Positions 25,254-58,538 of a stretch of DNA of 64,000 nt are shown one piece after another. Location of the stretch: positions 1 through 64,000 of the forward strand of contig JAZGGI010000028.1 in assembly GCA_036480375.1 (NCBI GenBank), read 5' to 3'. Position 1 is the first letter of the stretch, and the number at the start of each line of letters is the position of its first letter. The position numbers were made by a program, and so were the translations under genes. Under the pieces are notes generated by a model, which worked only from the letters and a program-made list of their open reading frames with translations, had not been told where the DNA came from and did no database searches. The stretch is from Candidatus Zixiibacteriota bacterium. Lineage in GTDB: Bacteria; Zixibacteria; MSB-5A5; GN15; JAAZOE01.

Positions 25254-26756
25254 GTGGCTGAAAGAAAAAAACTTACCAATAAAGAACGGATGAAAATCCC
25301 TCGGGTTGATATGCTCGAGCAGAAGCCGGAAGAGCGAGTTACGAATTTCAATGAAGTTCCTTTCGGTCTAACTCCGGAACAGGCTATGCAGGAAGCCGAA
25401 CGCTGCCTGTTCTGCAAAAAGCCTAAATGTATCGCCGGTTGTCCGGTCGAAGTAAAAATTCCGGAATTTATCGAACTGGTCGCCGAAGGTAAATTCTCCG
25501 AGGCGGCCCGCAAGATTAAAGAGACCAATGCCCTCCCGGCCATCTGCGGCCGTGTCTGCCCGCAGGATGAGCAATGCGAAATAGTTTGCGTTCTTACTAA
25601 GAAACATACATCAGTCGGTGTCGGCATGCTCGAACGATTCGTAGCCGACTGGGAACGCGAACACAATGAAATCATTATTCCCAAATGCGCCCCGCCGACC
25701 GGTAAAAAAGCGGCTATCGTCGGGGCCGGTCCGGCCGGTCTGACCGTTGCAGCTGATTTGGCTCTTATGGGCCACAAAGTCACGATCTTCGAAGCCCTCC
25801 ATAAACCGGGCGGAGTTTTAATATACGGCATTCCCGAATTTCGTCTGCCCAAATCAATCGTCGCCGCGGAAGTAAATTATCTCGAACAGCTCGGCGTCGA
25901 AGTCAAAACAAGTTTCGTCATCGGTAAGCTCGATACCATTGACGAACTCCTGAATGAAGAAGGTTTTGATTCGGTCTTTATCGGAACCGGGGCAGGGCTT
26001 CCAAATTTCATGCGCATCCCCGGCGAAAACCTCAAAGGCGTTTATTCGGCCAATGAATATCTGACTCGTGCCAATCTGATGCGCGGATACGCTTTCCCCG
26101 ATTATGACACTCCTATCTTTTCCGGTAAAAATGTCGCCGTCCTTGGCGGAGGAAATACCGCCATGGATTCGGTTCGAATTTCCAAACGTCTCGGCGCCGA
26201 TAATTCTTATATCGTTTATCGCCGCAGTGAAACCGAAATGCCGGCCCGTACCGAGGAGCGCCATCACGCCAAACAGGAAGGTATTGAGTTCAGGCTTCTG
26301 ACCAATCCCGTCAAGTTCATCGGCGATGAAGACGGCTGGCTGACGCACATGGAATGCGTCAAGATGGAATTGGGCGAGCCTGATTCATCCGGCCGCCGCC
26401 GTCCGATTCCAATTGAAGGTTCGAATTATCTGATTCCGGTCGATACTGTCGTGGTCGCCATCGGCAACTCCTCCAATCCTCTTATTCCGCAAACTACTCC
26501 CGGTCTCGATACCAATCGCTGGGGCAACATCACCGTTGATGAAAAAACGATGATGTCTTCCCGGCCGGGCGTCTTTGCCGGAGGCGATATCGTCACCGGC
26601 GGCGCGACGGTTATCCTCGCGGCCGGAGCGGGCAAAGTCGCCGCTCGTGCCATGCACCGCTTCATGTTGGGCCTGCCCATGATCGAAGAACCACCGGAAG
26701 AAGAAAAAGACAAAAAAACCGACAAGAAAAAACCCAAAGCCGAGAAAAAAGCGTAG
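25254..26756 (+). CDS. nfnB: NfnB: bifurcating transhydrogenase large subunit (GltD-like)
   Basis: 500 aa. N-terminal cysteine motifs CLFCKKPKCIAGCPV and CGRVCPQDEQCEIVC ligate [4Fe-4S] clusters. FAD site VGAGPAGLTVAADLA and NADPH site VLGGGNTAMDSVRISKRLGA follow. This matches NfnL of the Nfn complex and the small subunit of glutamate synthase; the neighbouring NfnA decides for Nfn. GTG start with AAGGAG. The C-terminus has an added ~25-residue Glu/Lys tail ending KAEKKA. After the TAG the same frame continues with a repeated AEKKA and then TAA. Confidence 0.93.
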   Translation: MAERKKLTNKERMKIPRVDMLEQKPEERVTNFNEVPFGLTPEQAMQEAERCLFCKKPKCIAGCPVEVKIPEFIELVAEGKFSEAARKIKETNALPAICGRVCPQDEQCEIVCVLTKKHTSVGVGMLERFVADWEREHNEIIIPKCAPPTGKKAAIVGAGPAGLTVAADLALMGHKVTIFEALHKPGGVLIYGIPEFRLPKSIVAAEVNYLEQLGVEVKTSFVIGKLDTIDELLNEEGFDSVFIGTGAGLPNFMRIPGENLKGVYSANEYLTRANLMRGYAFPDYDTPIFSGKNVAVLGGGNTAMDSVRISKRLGADNSYIVYRRSETEMPARTEERHHAKQEGIEFRLLTNPVKFIGDEDGWLTHMECVKMELGEPDSSGRRRPIPIEGSNYLIPVDTVVVAIGNSSNPLIPQTTPGLDTNRWGNITVDEKTMMSSRPGVFAGGDIVTGGATVILAAGAGKVAARAMHRFMLGLPMIEEPPEEEKDKKTDKKKPKAEKKA

Positions 26757-45882: not shown

Positions 45883-45958
45883 TGGTGGAGCCAAGGGAGT
45901 TCGAACCCCTGACCTCATGACTGCCAGTCATGCGTTCTCCTAACCGAACTACGGCTAC
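45883..45958 (-). tRNA. Second tRNA-Ala (GGC)-like copy, degenerate acceptor
   Basis: Nearly full copy of the 47335-47410 tRNA with anticodon GGC, intact D, anticodon and T arms and encoded CCA. The 5' strand is GTAGCCG, so pair 2-71 is a mismatch (T-C) and 1-72 relies on the new bases. It may be a decayed duplicate or an attachment-site copy; a working tRNA is not excluded. Confidence 0.55.
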
Positions 45959-46247
45959 ATAACACAACAACTTACGAGATTGCTTTGGATGTGATATCGG
46001 TCACGAATATCGATTTGTCGGGTGTTATCTCAAAGAACAAATAGAGGCTTTATTTGTGTGAGAAAAAGGCCGATGTTAGTCGGCCCTTTTGTTCTTAATG
46101 GTCGCGCTGATTTACGGACACACCTCACCGGTTCCATAAAAGAGTATGATGGCGGAAATGAGAAGCCAAGTCGGGAGTTAAAAGAATCGCCATGCATGGT
46201 CAATCATAAATGATAGGCCACCCATATTGTCTAATAAATTATAATTT
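45959..46247. other. Intergenic spacer with a hairpin
   Basis: Nearly 300 nt between the tRNA-like copy and the next gene. A stem at about 46060-46095 (AAAAAGGCCGAT...GTCGGCC CTTTT) could terminate plus-strand transcripts. No gene is supported; the 63-codon frame over this hairpin lacks start context. Confidence 0.35.
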
Positions 46248-47334: not shown

Positions 47335-47410
47335 TGGTGGAGCCGAGGGGGTTCGAACCCCTGACCTCATGACTGCCAGTCATGCGTTCTCCCAACTGAA
47401 CTACGGCCCC
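47335..47410 (-). tRNA. tRNA-Ala (anticodon GGC)
   Basis: Complete cloverleaf with encoded CCA. Acceptor GGGGCCG pairs with CGGCTCC (one G-T), anticodon loop CTGGCAG gives GGC, T-arm GGGGTTCGAACCCC. Its 3' end is repeated at 45883 and 43584. Confidence 0.96.
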
Positions 47411-53853: not shown

Positions 53854-56117
53854 ATCTGCCCCGGATTCTCGAGTCATTCCGGACCGATCCTGAAACGGTC
53901 AACGGCATCGCTCACTGGGAAACGATTTCATCAAGACCCGCCATAACCAAACCTTTCCCGAATTTCATTAACGAAAAACTAATCAACTGCCTCAAAACCC
54001 GCGGCATCGATTCATTATATTCGCATCAACTTGAGGCTATCGAACAAATCAATGAAGGCAAAAACGTCGTCGTCGTGACCCCGACCGCGTCGGGCAAAAC
54101 TCTTTGTTATAATATCCCCGTGATAAATCGCGTCATGCTCGAACCGGAAACTCGCGCTCTCTACCTCTTCCCGACCAAAGCTCTCGGAGCCGACCAGCTT
54201 GACGAACTGCATGGACTCGTAACCGACCTTAAAGTCGATATAAAAACCTATACCTTCGACGGCGACACCCCGCAGGAAGCTCGCCGCGCCGTCCGGTCGG
54301 CGGGCAATATCGTCATTACCAATCCTGATATGCTCCACGCCGGAATCCTCCCGCATCACACCAAATGGATAAAACTTTTTGAGAATCTCAAATACATAGT
54401 TATCGACGAGGTACACCAGTATCGGGGAATTTTTGGTTCGCATCTGGCGAATCTTATGAGAAGACTGAAACGAATTTGCAATTTCTATGACAGCCATCCG
54501 CAATTCATCTGCTGCTCGGCAACGATTGCCAATCCCGACGAATTGGCCTCGAAACTAATTGAACAGCCGGTCGTCAAAATTGACAAAAACGGAGCTCCCG
54601 CCGGAGAAAAACATTTCATCCTGTATAATCCGCCGGTCGTTAATGCCGAGTTGGGCATCCGCCGTTCGGCGGTAAACGAAACCGAACGGCTGGCGTCGAG
54701 ATTCATCCGGGAGAAAATTCAGACTATCGTCTTCGGCCGTTACCGCATGCAGGTCGAAATCATCCTGCGCTATCTTAAAGAAAAATTCAAACATGAATTC
54801 GGACGAGGAATAAAAATCGCCGGATACCGCGGCGGTTACCTGCCTAATGAACGGCGCAAGATCGAGCAGGGCGTCCGATCCGGCGAGATTACAGGAATTG
54901 TTTCGACCAATGCCCTTGAACTCGGCATCGATATCGGCTCACTTGATGTTTCTATCATGTGCGGTTTTCCCGGCTCCATCGCGTCAGTCTGGCAGCAGGC
55001 CGGACGGGCCGGACGCAAAGCCGGGGTATCGGCGGCGATCATGGTCGCGACCTCATCGGCCTTGCCGCAGTTTCTCATGTCGCACCCGGAATATTTCTTC
55101 AAACGCACCCCCGAAGAAGGCATCGTCGATCCCGATAACCTGATAATTCATTCCAGCCACATCAAATGCGCCGCCTTTGAATTGCCTGTCTGGATGGGTG
55201 AAAAAATCGGGCCCGAACCGGTCGATGATATCATGGAATATCTCGAAACCAAACGAGTCGTTCGTTCGGCGGGCGACAAGTACTACTGGTCATCCGATAT
55301 ATATCCCGCCAATGAAGTTTCCCTGCGTTCGGCTTCGCCCGAAAATTTCGTAATTTTGAATACTTCTGATAGTGATAGAGTTATCGGTGAGATCGATTAT
55401 TTTTCCGCGCCGGAATTTCTGCATCCCGAGGCGATTTATATTCACGGCGCCGAAACCTATCAGGTTAAAAAACTCGACTGGGACGGACGGCGCGCTTACG
55501 TCGAGGAAGCCGATGTTGATTATTACACCGATGCCGAAGAGAAGGCGGAACTCAAAATCCTCGAAGTTGATGAGAAAAAATACATCTCCCCCGGTACCAT
55601 CGGTCACGGCGATGTATCGTTGACGCGCGTTATCGTGCTCTTCAAAAAAGTTAAATTCCACACTCACGAAAATGTCGGTTCCGGGCCGGTCGCGCTTCCC
55701 GAGCAGGAGATGCACACGACTTCATTCTGGTATCAGTTCCCCAACGACCTCGCCATTTCGGCTAACCTGACCGAATCGAATTTGGGCGGAGGCCTGCGGG
55801 GCGTCGCCAATGTCCTGCAGAAAATCGCTCCGTTGTGGCTCATGTGCGACCCGCGCGATATCCGGTCATTGTCGCGCGTGAAGGATACTTTCACCGGTTG
55901 TCCGACGTTATATGTTTATGATAATATCCCCGCCGGAGTCGGATTCGCTGAAAAATTATACAACATGGTTCCCGACATCTTTCGTGCCTGCAAACAGCAC
56001 ATTATAAACTGCGGTTGCGCCGGAGGCTGCCCTTCCTGCACCGGCCCGCCGTTAGAGCTTGGCGAAAAAGGTAAGAATGCTACAGTTGATGTGTTGGATG
56101 TTATTCTGGATGAATGA
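53850..56117 (+). CDS. DEAD-box helicase with C-terminal DUF1998/MrfA-like zinc domain
   Basis: 755 aa. Walker A TPTASGKTLCY, DEVH box (IDEVHQYRG), SAT motif CSATI, and motif VI QQAGRAGRKAG, preceded by SHQLEAIEQINEGKNV (Q-motif region). The C-terminal part carries four clustered cysteines (CKQH...CGCAGGCPSC), the metal-binding DUF1998-type end of MrfA/YprA-like helicases, which act in DNA repair. ATG overlaps the previous stop (ATGA). Its 3' end is duplicated downstream at 56889-57020. Confidence 0.93.
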   Translation: MNLPRILESFRTDPETVNGIAHWETISSRPAITKPFPNFINEKLINCLKTRGIDSLYSHQLEAIEQINEGKNVVVVTPTASGKTLCYNIPVINRVMLEPETRALYLFPTKALGADQLDELHGLVTDLKVDIKTYTFDGDTPQEARRAVRSAGNIVITNPDMLHAGILPHHTKWIKLFENLKYIVIDEVHQYRGIFGSHLANLMRRLKRICNFYDSHPQFICCSATIANPDELASKLIEQPVVKIDKNGAPAGEKHFILYNPPVVNAELGIRRSAVNETERLASRFIREKIQTIVFGRYRMQVEIILRYLKEKFKHEFGRGIKIAGYRGGYLPNERRKIEQGVRSGEITGIVSTNALELGIDIGSLDVSIMCGFPGSIASVWQQAGRAGRKAGVSAAIMVATSSALPQFLMSHPEYFFKRTPEEGIVDPDNLIIHSSHIKCAAFELPVWMGEKIGPEPVDDIMEYLETKRVVRSAGDKYYWSSDIYPANEVSLRSASPENFVILNTSDSDRVIGEIDYFSAPEFLHPEAIYIHGAETYQVKKLDWDGRRAYVEEADVDYYTDAEEKAELKILEVDEKKYISPGTIGHGDVSLTRVIVLFKKVKFHTHENVGSGPVALPEQEMHTTSFWYQFPNDLAISANLTESNLGGGLRGVANVLQKIAPLWLMCDPRDIRSLSRVKDTFTGCPTLYVYDNIPAGVGFAEKLYNMVPDIFRACKQHIINCGCAGGCPSCTGPPLELGEKGKNATVDVLDVILDE

Positions 56118-56158
56118 ACTAAAAAAGCAAAATAATAGTCCGCACTTCTAACAGGCAG

Positions 56159-56374
56159 TTATAAACTTAAGAATAAGTCAACCGAAATCCCCGCCTGTGA
56201 ACAAATCGATTTTAATAGTATAGGACCAACATCTTGTGAACTATGGGAAAGGATTACAATTCTCCCGGAATCATTTTCCCAAATTTCATGTTTGCTTGAT
56301 CTAATTTGACAGAATCCTAATTTGCGGAGTTTTTTTCTTACTTGACGTAATGTTATTGTCGGTTTGTTTCCCAA
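56159..56374 (-). CDS. hicA: HicA-family mRNA interferase toxin
   Basis: 71 aa. Double-stranded-RBD-like toxin with catalytic His in SSKHEIWEND, then VILSHSSQDVGPILLKSICSQAGIS, matching HicA (GxHxxWxxxxGRxVxxPxH...RSIIKQAGI). TTG start immediately after the hicB stop (TAATTG). The usual order hicA-hicB is reversed. Cleaves mRNA when the antitoxin is lost. Confidence 0.85.
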   Translation of the reverse strand: MGNKPTITLRQVRKKLRKLGFCQIRSSKHEIWENDSGRIVILSHSSQDVGPILLKSICSQAGISVDLFLSL

Positions 56375-56719
56375 TTATATAACACACTCCTGTAATCCGG
56401 ATTCACCAAAATTAAAATTCATTAATTCTTTACTTCGTAATTTTGACGATGGATGTGAGATTTTTTTCATTATAATGGAGTGATATTCCTCGATAAATTC
56501 CTTCGGTGCCAGGCGGGGTATATAATTTGACAACTCATCGTGATGTTTGGCGGCAATATATTTAAGATATTCGCCTATTAAAATGCTGCATTCTTCTCTT
56601 GCGGCTTTTGGGGATGATCCCTGGGCTACTATATTCAGGTCGATACAAATAGCCACCCAATAATTGCCTTCTTTTTTGGTGTAACCTCTGAAAATCACTT
56701 GTTTATTTGGCGTTGCCAC
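56375..56719 (-). CDS. hicB: HicB-family antitoxin
   Basis: 114 aa. HicB hallmark YWVAICIDLNIVAQGSSPKAAREE, the partial RNase H-like fold, then a ~50-aa helical C-terminus. GTG start at 56719 behind GGAGGAATTT. Neutralises HicA by binding; forms a bicistronic unit with it. Confidence 0.85.
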   Translation of the reverse strand: MATPNKQVIFRGYTKKEGNYWVAICIDLNIVAQGSSPKAAREECSILIGEYLKYIAAKHHDELSNYIPRLAPKEFIEEYHSIIMKKISHPSSKLRSKELMNFNFGESGLQECVI

Positions 56720-56888
56720 AAATTCCTCCGAGTCACCACTATATTATATGTGTCGGATAACAATTACCACAATTTTAGCGGCAGTTTTATATTGATCTTT
56801 CCAAGCCTTATAAATTATACACAGAAACAAAAAAAAACAAGACATTTCTCGCTTGACTTAAGTGTCTGTTATAGCATACTATACGAGA
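56720..56888. other. Spacer between hicB and the helicase remnant
   Basis: AT-rich sequence that would carry the hicBA promoter on the minus strand. I see no strong boxes and no gene. Confidence 0.3.
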
Positions 56889-57020
56889 GTCAAACAGCAT
56901 ATATTGAGTTGCGGCTGCGCCGGAGGCTGTCCTTCCTGCACCGGCCCACCCCTCGAACTCGGCGAAAAAGGTAAGAATGCAACGGTGGATGTGTTGGATG
57001 TTATTTTGGACAATAATTAA
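56889..57020 (+). pseudogene. Displaced 3' end of the helicase gene
   Basis: Reads KQHILSCGCAGGCPSCTGPP then LELGEKGKNATVDVLDVILD, NN and TAA, almost identical in protein to the end of the intact helicase (55989-56117). About one base in ten differs, mostly silent sites. It has no upstream coding part. This pattern is typical when an element inserts into the 3' end of a gene and supplies a replacement end. Confidence 0.85.
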
Positions 57021-57052: not shown

Positions 57053-57850
57053 TCACAATAATTTCTTCTTAGCATTTATTTGACGGCACCACTTTGTATA
57101 CTGGACATCCACAAGCTTGATATTTTCTGAATTCAGAGGATTCATATGACATATTACGCATCTTGAATGATAAACTTCCTCAATCATGTTTTCTAGCCAA
57201 CCTCGCTTGGGCAATATTCCGTCCTTAACCAACTTATCATCAACTTTTTTCACCAATTTATTAAGCTCTTTCAAATCCAGATAACCAATTTCGCTTTTTG
57301 CCCTTTTTTGATGCCAAGGATTTTTATCTTCATTCTTTTTCCTGTCTTCTACATTCCTTTTTAAATCATCCAGTTTTGGCAACTTATTCCACCAATCATA
57401 CCCATATTTCTTTTCAAGTGCTATCTCTAGAAATTTCCGGATAGAATTTTCCAATAAATATAGTGTGGCAAAAGTCGTTAACATTTTGGCAGATTCTGAT
57501 ATTTGAGTGGCTGAAAGCAGCGGCTCCTTTGAAATTATTGAAGAATCAATCTTTATTATATGTTCCTTTACTGAGTTTCTTTTATTTGATTTTTTGGCTA
57601 ATTTCTTTCCTGTTTTTGCCATATTTCCATTCATTGTTGCCCATTTATTTTGATACTTCATAGTTTCTTGAAATTTCTCATCGTTTAGATATTTTTTGAT
57701 TTTAATACCTATTGAATGCGCAAGTATATAATAAGATACGTCGGTTGGCATCAATAACTTATCCCTTATCGCCGATGCCTTTTTTGATATAGCAGCCCCT
57801 GATACGTCAAGTCCTTTAATTAACTTTGACTTTAATTCGCGATTTATCAT
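57053..57850 (-). CDS. Swt1-like HEPN-domain protein (putative RNase toxin)
   Basis: 265 aa. The C-terminal half has the pattern LLENSIRKFLEIALEKKYGYDWW...EIGYLDLKELNKLV...WLENMIEEVYHSRCVICHMNPL. This matches Swt1-family HEPN domains, with the R-x4-H RNase motif as R230-CVIC-H235. HEPN proteins are metal-independent RNases common in toxin-antitoxin and abortive-infection systems. The N-terminal ~100 residues are Lys-rich and match no known domain. It ends an operon of three small HTH proteins (gap of 11 nt). Strongly AT-rich compared with the neighbouring core genes. RNase activity is inferred. Confidence 0.75.
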   Translation of the reverse strand: MINRELKSKLIKGLDVSGAAISKKASAIRDKLLMPTDVSYYILAHSIGIKIKKYLNDEKFQETMKYQNKWATMNGNMAKTGKKLAKKSNKRNSVKEHIIKIDSSIISKEPLLSATQISESAKMLTTFATLYLLENSIRKFLEIALEKKYGYDWWNKLPKLDDLKRNVEDRKKNEDKNPWHQKRAKSEIGYLDLKELNKLVKKVDDKLVKDGILPKRGWLENMIEEVYHSRCVICHMNPLNSENIKLVDVQYTKWCRQINAKKKLL

Positions 57851-57861
57851 TAATGTTATCC

Positions 57862-58086
57862 TTATTTAGATTTCTTTTTTCCCTTTTTTTTTGCCTTACT
57901 CAATTGAACCGAAACTGTTCCGGGGGTAGTACCAATTAGCTCTGATATTTCGGCAGGATTCAAACCAAATTTGGCCAAATGAATAATCTTATCATTTTTT
58001 GTCTCATATTTTTCGGTAGCAGTTATCGCCAAAATAGCCTTAATATTCTTTAATTCTTCCAACATCTCCTTGAGTACTTTTTCCAT
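57862..58086 (-). CDS. Small HTH protein 3 of a paralogous triplet
   Basis: 74 aa. N-terminal amphipathic helix (MEKVLKEMLEELKNIKAILA) then a sigma-region-4-like HTH (KIIHLAKFGLNPAEISELIGTTPGTVSVQLSKAKKK) and a Lys tail. Start at ATG 58086 behind TTAGGAGG; a much longer open frame upstream is unlikely. Second to last gene of the operon, 11 nt from the HEPN gene. Likely DNA- or complex-binding. Confidence 0.7.
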   Translation of the reverse strand: MEKVLKEMLEELKNIKAILAITATEKYETKNDKIIHLAKFGLNPAEISELIGTTPGTVSVQLSKAKKKGKKKSK

Positions 58087-58105
58087 CACGCCTCCTAATG
58101 AATGA

Positions 58106-58318
58106 TTATTTACGCTTCTTACTTTTCTTTTTAAGATTGGATAAATGAGCGGCAACAGCAGATCCGGATATGCCCATAACATCACCGATTTCTTTATTAC
58201 CCATACCGCTATATTTCAACATTGATACAGACTTTTCTTTCTCTAATCCGTTCGTGGCTTGTATTGCCAAGAGATTTATTATGACTGATAATTTCTTTGA
58301 TATTTCATCTTCATTCAT
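58106..58318 (-). CDS. Small HTH protein 2 of a paralogous triplet
   Basis: 70 aa. Same layout as its two neighbours: a helix (ISKKLSVIINLLAIQATNGL) then HTH (VSMLKYSGMGNKEIGDVMGI SGSAVAAHLSNL) and a KKKSKKRK tail. Strong SD AAAGGAG. 19 nt before the next gene. Confidence 0.7.
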   Translation of the reverse strand: MNEDEISKKLSVIINLLAIQATNGLEKEKSVSMLKYSGMGNKEIGDVMGISGSAVAAHLSNLKKKSKKRK

Positions 58319-58322
58319 TTTG

Positions 58323-58538
58323 TTAATCTCCTTTACTTTTTTTTAATTCCCTTGAAATAGTCGCCCTAATGATATTTGGCTTAATACCCAAAATATCAGA
58401 AATCTCATTATTCTCAAAACCACATCTGTGAAGACTCATAATTTTAACATTTTGCGTTTTATCGCCTAATACATTTAACGTTAGCAATTTACTTATCCTA
58501 TCAAGACGATTAATAACAATATCCAATTGTTTTTCCAT
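58323..58538 (-). CDS. Small HTH protein 1 of a paralogous triplet
   Basis: 71 aa. Helix (MEKQLDIVINRLDRISKLLT), HTH (IMSLHRCGFENNEISDILGI KPNIIRATISREL) and a KKSKGD tail. First gene of the operon, with SD GAGGAGG. 4 nt before the second gene. The three proteins align without gaps over ~55 residues, so they arose by tandem duplication. Confidence 0.7.
   Translation of the reverse strand: MEKQLDIVINRLDRISKLLTLNVLGDKTQNVKIMSLHRCGFENNEISDILGIKPNIIRATISRELKKSKGD

Follow-up and report, generated by a model that had tools for sequence, protein, structure and literature searches.

Silently diverged second copies of gene 3' ends as probable scars of small gene acquisitions in a Candidatus Zixiibacteriota genome

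The 3' end of a helicase gene occurs twice in a 64,000-nt stretch of a Candidatus Zixiibacteriota genome (GCA_036480375.1, contig JAZGGI010000028.1, positions 1 to 64,000; hereafter "the window"), once on the intact gene and again past a small toxin-antitoxin operon, in a copy that has diverged mainly at silent sites. Two other genes of the same genome show displaced ends of this kind, the same helicase carries an independent one in a relative from another genus, and no recombinase was found on the contig. We define a "scar" as a displaced second copy of a gene's 3' end that is separated from the intact gene by acquired cargo. On the best reading, the scars record small acquisitions of genes from related strains and do not mark the boundary of a dedicated mobile element. 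The genome comprises 3.6 Mb in 50 contigs, and the window lies on a contig of 279 kb with a GC content of 44% (C28).

The helicase is an intact, MrfA/YprA-like protein (Table 1). Its match to TIGR03817 falls below that model's cut-off, and its MZB domain is the C-terminal Zn-binding domain. The end of the gene forms a direct repeat of 120 nt (55991-56110 and 56891-57010, 85% identical, E 1e-31), and both tails remain in frame to their own stop codons, one ending in CGCAGGCPSCTGPPLELGEKGKNATVDVLDVILDE and the other in VILDNN. A preliminary description of this DNA had recorded the duplicated tail past HicBA, which the reading frames and the repeat score bear out, but its figures (~44 codons encoding the same protein, with ~10% silent changes) require revision: helicase codons ~715-755 (~41 codons) are present twice, the copies differ at 15% of nucleotides, two codons carry replacements, and the last residue or two differ. 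In the 39 codons compared there are 13 silent and 2 replacement differences (dS ~0.87, dN ~0.06). Exact identity between the tails extends over 20 nt at most, and no similarity to the helicase can be seen in the left flank of the displaced tail. The genome contains one full helicase of the MrfA/YprA family, and the second tail is therefore not part of a second gene, a possibility that the preliminary description had raised against its own reading. Direct copies of the target sequence, the helicase tail, flank the acquired genes, as they do in insertion with long target duplication and in homology-facilitated illegitimate recombination.

Because the differences are nearly all silent, the two helicase ends must, to judge from the substitutions, have diverged as working alleles in related strains or species before they were juxtaposed. 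This pattern supports the earlier suggestion of recombination with a related strain. The proposal to ask which 3' end is closer to relatives gave no signal for the native tail: the tails of 12 relatives resemble both window copies about equally. A diversity-generating retroelement was considered and rejected; the differences involve all bases, fall mostly at third positions and are not confined to template adenines, and no reverse transcriptase was found among the genes between and around the repeats.

Table 1. Features at and beyond the 3' end of the helicase gene, in window positions
Feature	Position	Strand	Evidence
MrfA/YprA-like DEXH helicase, intact, 755 aa	53850..56117	+	Pfam DEAD 2.8e-35, Helicase_C, MZB 1.4e-18
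Proximal, expressed copy of the helicase tail	55991..56110	+	Direct-repeat alignment
HicA-like toxin gene, 71 aa	56159..56374	-	Pfam HicA_toxin 1.8e-11; homologues beside HicB homologues in two other genomes
HicB-like antitoxin gene, 114 aa, upstream of the toxin gene	56375..56719	-	7 further genomes of the phylum carry homologues
Displaced helicase tail, from codon ~715 to its stop	56889..57020	+	85% nt identity over 120 nt, 95% aa identity, dS 0.87/dN 0.06
HEPN protein gene (Swt1-like HEPN), 265 aa, candidate phage-defence component	57053..57850	-	Pfam HEPN_Swt1 1.8e-7; PADLOC PDC-M34B 9.3e-31
Three small HTH genes (LuxR/sigma-r4 type), upstream of the HEPN gene	57862..58538	-	Pfam GerE / Sigma70_r4_2, some below curated cut-off

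The operon between the two tails, a HicA toxin domain with an adjoining HicB-like partner, is a predicted HicBA toxin-antitoxin module. The HicB-like protein has no match in Pfam; the HicB-HicA pair is also found in two other genomes of the phylum (G113 and G125). Beyond the displaced tail, the preliminary description had an HTH-HEPN operon starting 33 nt past the stop. It is the 3' end of the HEPN gene that lies there: the HTH-HTH-HTH-HEPN operon, on the minus strand, starts near 58538 and converges on the displaced tail, just as HicBA converges on the intact helicase. The three HTH genes stand in tandem and have a similar layout, a regulator-rich partner for one HEPN toxin-like protein.

Helicase orthologues are present in most of the Zixiibacteriota genomes searched. 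The best matches come from Candidatus Zixiibacteriota genomes, the closest of them from other genera of the same family. In the nearest relative compared (G001, another genus; contig JAGLON010000008.1), the helicase is followed by a gene for an 841-aa secreted beta-propeller protein and then by a displaced tail that corresponds to helicase codons ~736-753 (locus L032, 9193-9246; 54 nt, 93% identical) and has its own stop codon nearby. The two tails of this relative differ by 4 silent and 0 replacement codons. Because the cargo and the start codon of the tail (~736 versus ~715) differ from those in the window, the two scars record independent events. In G001, a stretch on the left side of the displaced tail (L032, 9088-9300) is similar to the C-terminal portion of the neighbouring 74-aa gene (EEAVKLITGKPP / EEAVKKIIGKPV); a remnant of this downstream gene was rejected, the protein score being barely above shuffles and the DNA score not above them.

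No displaced tail was found in 20 other order-level relatives, which were searched up to 19 kb downstream of the helicase (most of them 12-19 kb), or at the remaining helicase loci with 1 kb or more of downstream sequence. In most relatives the helicase tail is single, but the DNA downstream of it is different. At 33 of 41 loci an M54 gene is retained upstream of the helicase, and the 3 kb upstream of the window's helicase match 19 of 24 relatives, whereas its 4 kb downstream matches none of 32. Since the upstream side is shared by most relatives and the downstream side by none, the helicase 3' end appears to be the edge of a variable region. The earlier claim of an insertion hotspot is fair in a mild form, which the independent scar with different cargo in G001 also favours and the 20 order-level relatives lacking a displaced tail do not; a single fixed integration site is not indicated. 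Searches found no donor strain, congener or empty site, the nearest genomes compared being from other genera. One order-level relative without a full helicase match (G055) has a stand-alone match to the helicase C-terminus within an 82-aa frame (C1:676225-676338, L147).

The same kind of scar is present at other genes of this genome. In a self-comparison of the contig, the tail of a sirtuin gene (C28, 103045-103779) and the 12 nt past its stop recur at 104974-105082 (91% identical), with a DUF1295-family gene in between. A scan for displaced tails that covered ~1.03 Mb of the genome located a GGDEF-domain gene (contig C16, 25039-25980) whose tail occurs again at 26520-26579 (92% identical), beyond a glyoxalase-family gene. 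Both genes are single-copy; the tails differ by 6 silent and 2 replacement codons in the sirtuin gene and by 5 silent and 0 replacement codons in the GGDEF gene. No displaced tails were seen at the relatives of either gene (up to six genomes each).

When the four scars (helicase, sirtuin, GGDEF and the G001 helicase) are pooled, divergence between the copies amounts to 7-15% and falls mostly on silent sites, and 4 of the 32 changed codons are replacements (p ~4e-8 even if the displaced copy alone decayed freely), indicating that the copies diverged as functional alleles before displacement. In all four, the homology ends at the stop codon or within a few codons of it, which suggests that the alleles already had different downstream DNA. 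The scars begin at different codons, and their cargo is unrelated and measures 0.5-2.7 kb in each case. No displaced 5' ends of comparable clarity were found, against about four clear cases at 3' ends, and these numbers are small. A 300-kb sample of E. coli K-12, too small for a comparison of rates, contained no such scar. Several candidates were rejected: the repeated ends of a 960-aa and a 1220-aa gene look like T9SS sorting domains, a 1709-aa gene is dockerin-repeat-like, a 158-aa open reading frame has mostly replacement changes and is possibly spurious, a 375-aa gene in G044 has just 43 nt repeated, and a candidate in G008 consists of tyrosine-recombinase-like paralogues.

We think it probable that the locus now holds two of its alleles, derived from related strains or species and joined end to end in an event of the kind termed homology-facilitated illegitimate recombination, or alternatively "insertion with long target duplication". 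One allele would have consisted of the helicase followed by HicBA, and the other of the helicase followed by the HTH-HEPN operon. DNA arriving from a related strain would have paired by homology with the resident helicase gene on one side, so that the donor helicase tail and its adjoining operon were added and replaced the resident tail. On the other side, a joint without homology would have formed within the resident helicase, at codon ~715. The result would have been an intact chimeric helicase, with the resident tail left as a scar past the new cargo. Single-crossover integration of a small circularised fragment would be a topologically equivalent variant, for which the homology at hand is just 54-120 nt and diverged. 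We infer the strain-to-strain origin from the silent divergence, and likewise infer the direction (which tail was resident) and the exact recombination route. ComEC and DprA, both widespread, are present in the genome, and Ku is absent from it. In its classic form, homology-facilitated illegitimate recombination is usually accompanied by some loss of recipient DNA, and no such loss is visible at the helicase scar, which counts against this explanation. A symmetric process acting without selection would also not predict clear cases at 3' ends only (about four versus none at 5' ends), a comparison in which the numbers are too small to weigh.

The preliminary description had taken the displaced tail to define an element boundary. 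A site-specific integrative element that used the helicase 3' end as its attachment site, carried a replacement tail and has since lost its integrase would account for the order of intact gene, cargo and displaced 3' end, which is the classic anatomy of such elements. The cargo, whether HicBA or HicBA together with the HEPN operon, would suit this explanation: a toxin-antitoxin pair and a candidate defence operon, both AT-rich (35% and 32% GC, respectively, versus 44% for the contig). The helicase has, moreover, been affected twice within the family. Site-specific integration is nonetheless disfavoured, because C28 carries no integrase or resolvase, the tails start at different codons and they lack an identical core, and we regard an integrative element as unlikely. 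No match to the tyrosine integrase (PF00589) or serine recombinase (PF00239) families was found on the 279-kb contig, those of the genome being on other contigs. The tails start at codons ~715 and ~736, and no constant attachment core is identical in both flanks; the copies are 85% and 93% alike throughout, with mismatches spread through both repeats. The sirtuin and GGDEF genes bear the same scar, the cargo is just 0.5-2.7 kb, no close relatives of the HEPN protein or the helicase tail were found encoded on viral contigs, and the cargo DNA had no match to phage records. If a dedicated, cassette-like mobility system placed small modules at the 3' ends of genes and left displaced tails behind, it would agree with the position of the clear cases, which are at 3' ends only, and with their number and size: three loci within the ~1.03 Mb of this genome that were scanned and a fourth in the relative, each with 0.5-2.7 kb of cargo. 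The cases, however, share no recombinase or cargo family, their breakpoints differ, and a generic recombination route is enough to explain them; we consider such a system extremely unlikely.

The order of helicase, cargo and tail is also compatible with a local duplication of the helicase tail, by slippage or unequal exchange, after which HicBA inserted and the extra tail decayed, a history for which one genome suffices. A decaying tail should, however, gain replacements and indels, and the pooled replacement count given above is far from free decay; HicBA is not repeated after the second tail, nor the HEPN operon after the first. Local duplication therefore seems very unlikely. Another explanation is that two strain haplotypes of one locus were laid end to end during metagenome assembly. 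The nearest relatives are metagenome-assembled genomes and this genome probably is too, and strain mixtures hold just such pairs of diverged alleles of one gene end. We nevertheless judge an assembly artefact to be quite unlikely: there is no N at the junctions or anywhere in the 279-kb contig, the longest exact shared word, 20 nt, would not suffice to bridge a de Bruijn graph at the usual k, and the same scar appears in the independent assembly of a relative and at further loci of this genome.

The end-to-end joining of alleles has counterparts in known systems. Homology-facilitated illegitimate recombination has been reported in E. coli conjugation (PMC3240628) and discussed for small variable segments (PMC2884548). 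As in the cases from Acinetobacter, S. pneumoniae, P. stutzeri and E. coli, homology here would lie in a conserved gene on one side and be lacking on the other, with foreign cargo gained and no recombinase needed; experimental events of this kind usually delete recipient DNA, whereas here the recipient tail would be kept as a duplicate. The process has also been invoked for the displacement of T6SS effector-immunity modules in Vibrio cholerae (PMC5361080). In that system, and in rhs C-terminal displacement (PMC2935791), an incoming module is anchored in a conserved gene and shifts the old 3' end and its neighbour downstream, as is proposed here, giving stacked remnants. There the gene 3' end is itself the variable cargo, whereas here the tail is conserved housekeeping sequence and the cargo an unrelated neighbouring operon. 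"Insertion with long target duplication" was described in Helicobacter pylori (Nobusato et al. 2000, as cited in PMC1643837). According to that citing account, small mobile genes lie between long direct target copies, as in the window; the H. pylori genes are restriction-modification genes where ours are toxin-antitoxin genes. Measured against the same account, the copies described here are 7-15% diverged, mostly at silent sites, which points to former alleles and not to fresh duplicates. Integrative elements at the 3' ends of tRNA and other genes likewise leave cargo flanked by an intact gene and a displaced 3' fragment; the scars differ from them in having no integrase, no constant core, differing start points and several unrelated target genes.

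This class of event is already known, and the point of note, which we find mildly interesting, is its recurrent footprint. Because there are three scars in ~1.03 Mb and the helicase bears a further, independent one in another genus, the data suggest that toxin-antitoxin and other small modules regularly enter such genomes without integrases. Silently diverged spare gene ends would thereby show the sites of recent acquisitions from related strains in a single genome of an uncultured phylum, with no second strain needed. A broader proposal, that Zixiibacteriota of this family repeatedly gain modules of one or two genes by a route that needs no recombinase, acts specifically behind gene 3' ends and leaves displaced, silently diverged tails as its footprint, is doubtful and seems unlikely to hold. 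If it were true, such tails could be used to map recent acquisitions from single genomes.

Two further pairs of repeats were observed near single genes. Two copies of tRNA-Ala(GGC), 94.5% alike, flank a 176-aa gene in the window (45884-45959 and 47335-47410, minus strand), and the comparable stretch upstream of the helicase in G001 has a single tRNA-Ala(GGC); the pair is possibly another acquisition scar. Elsewhere on C28, 87-nt direct repeats that are 98% alike (73869-73955 and 74688-74774, L153) closely flank a single 230-aa gene.
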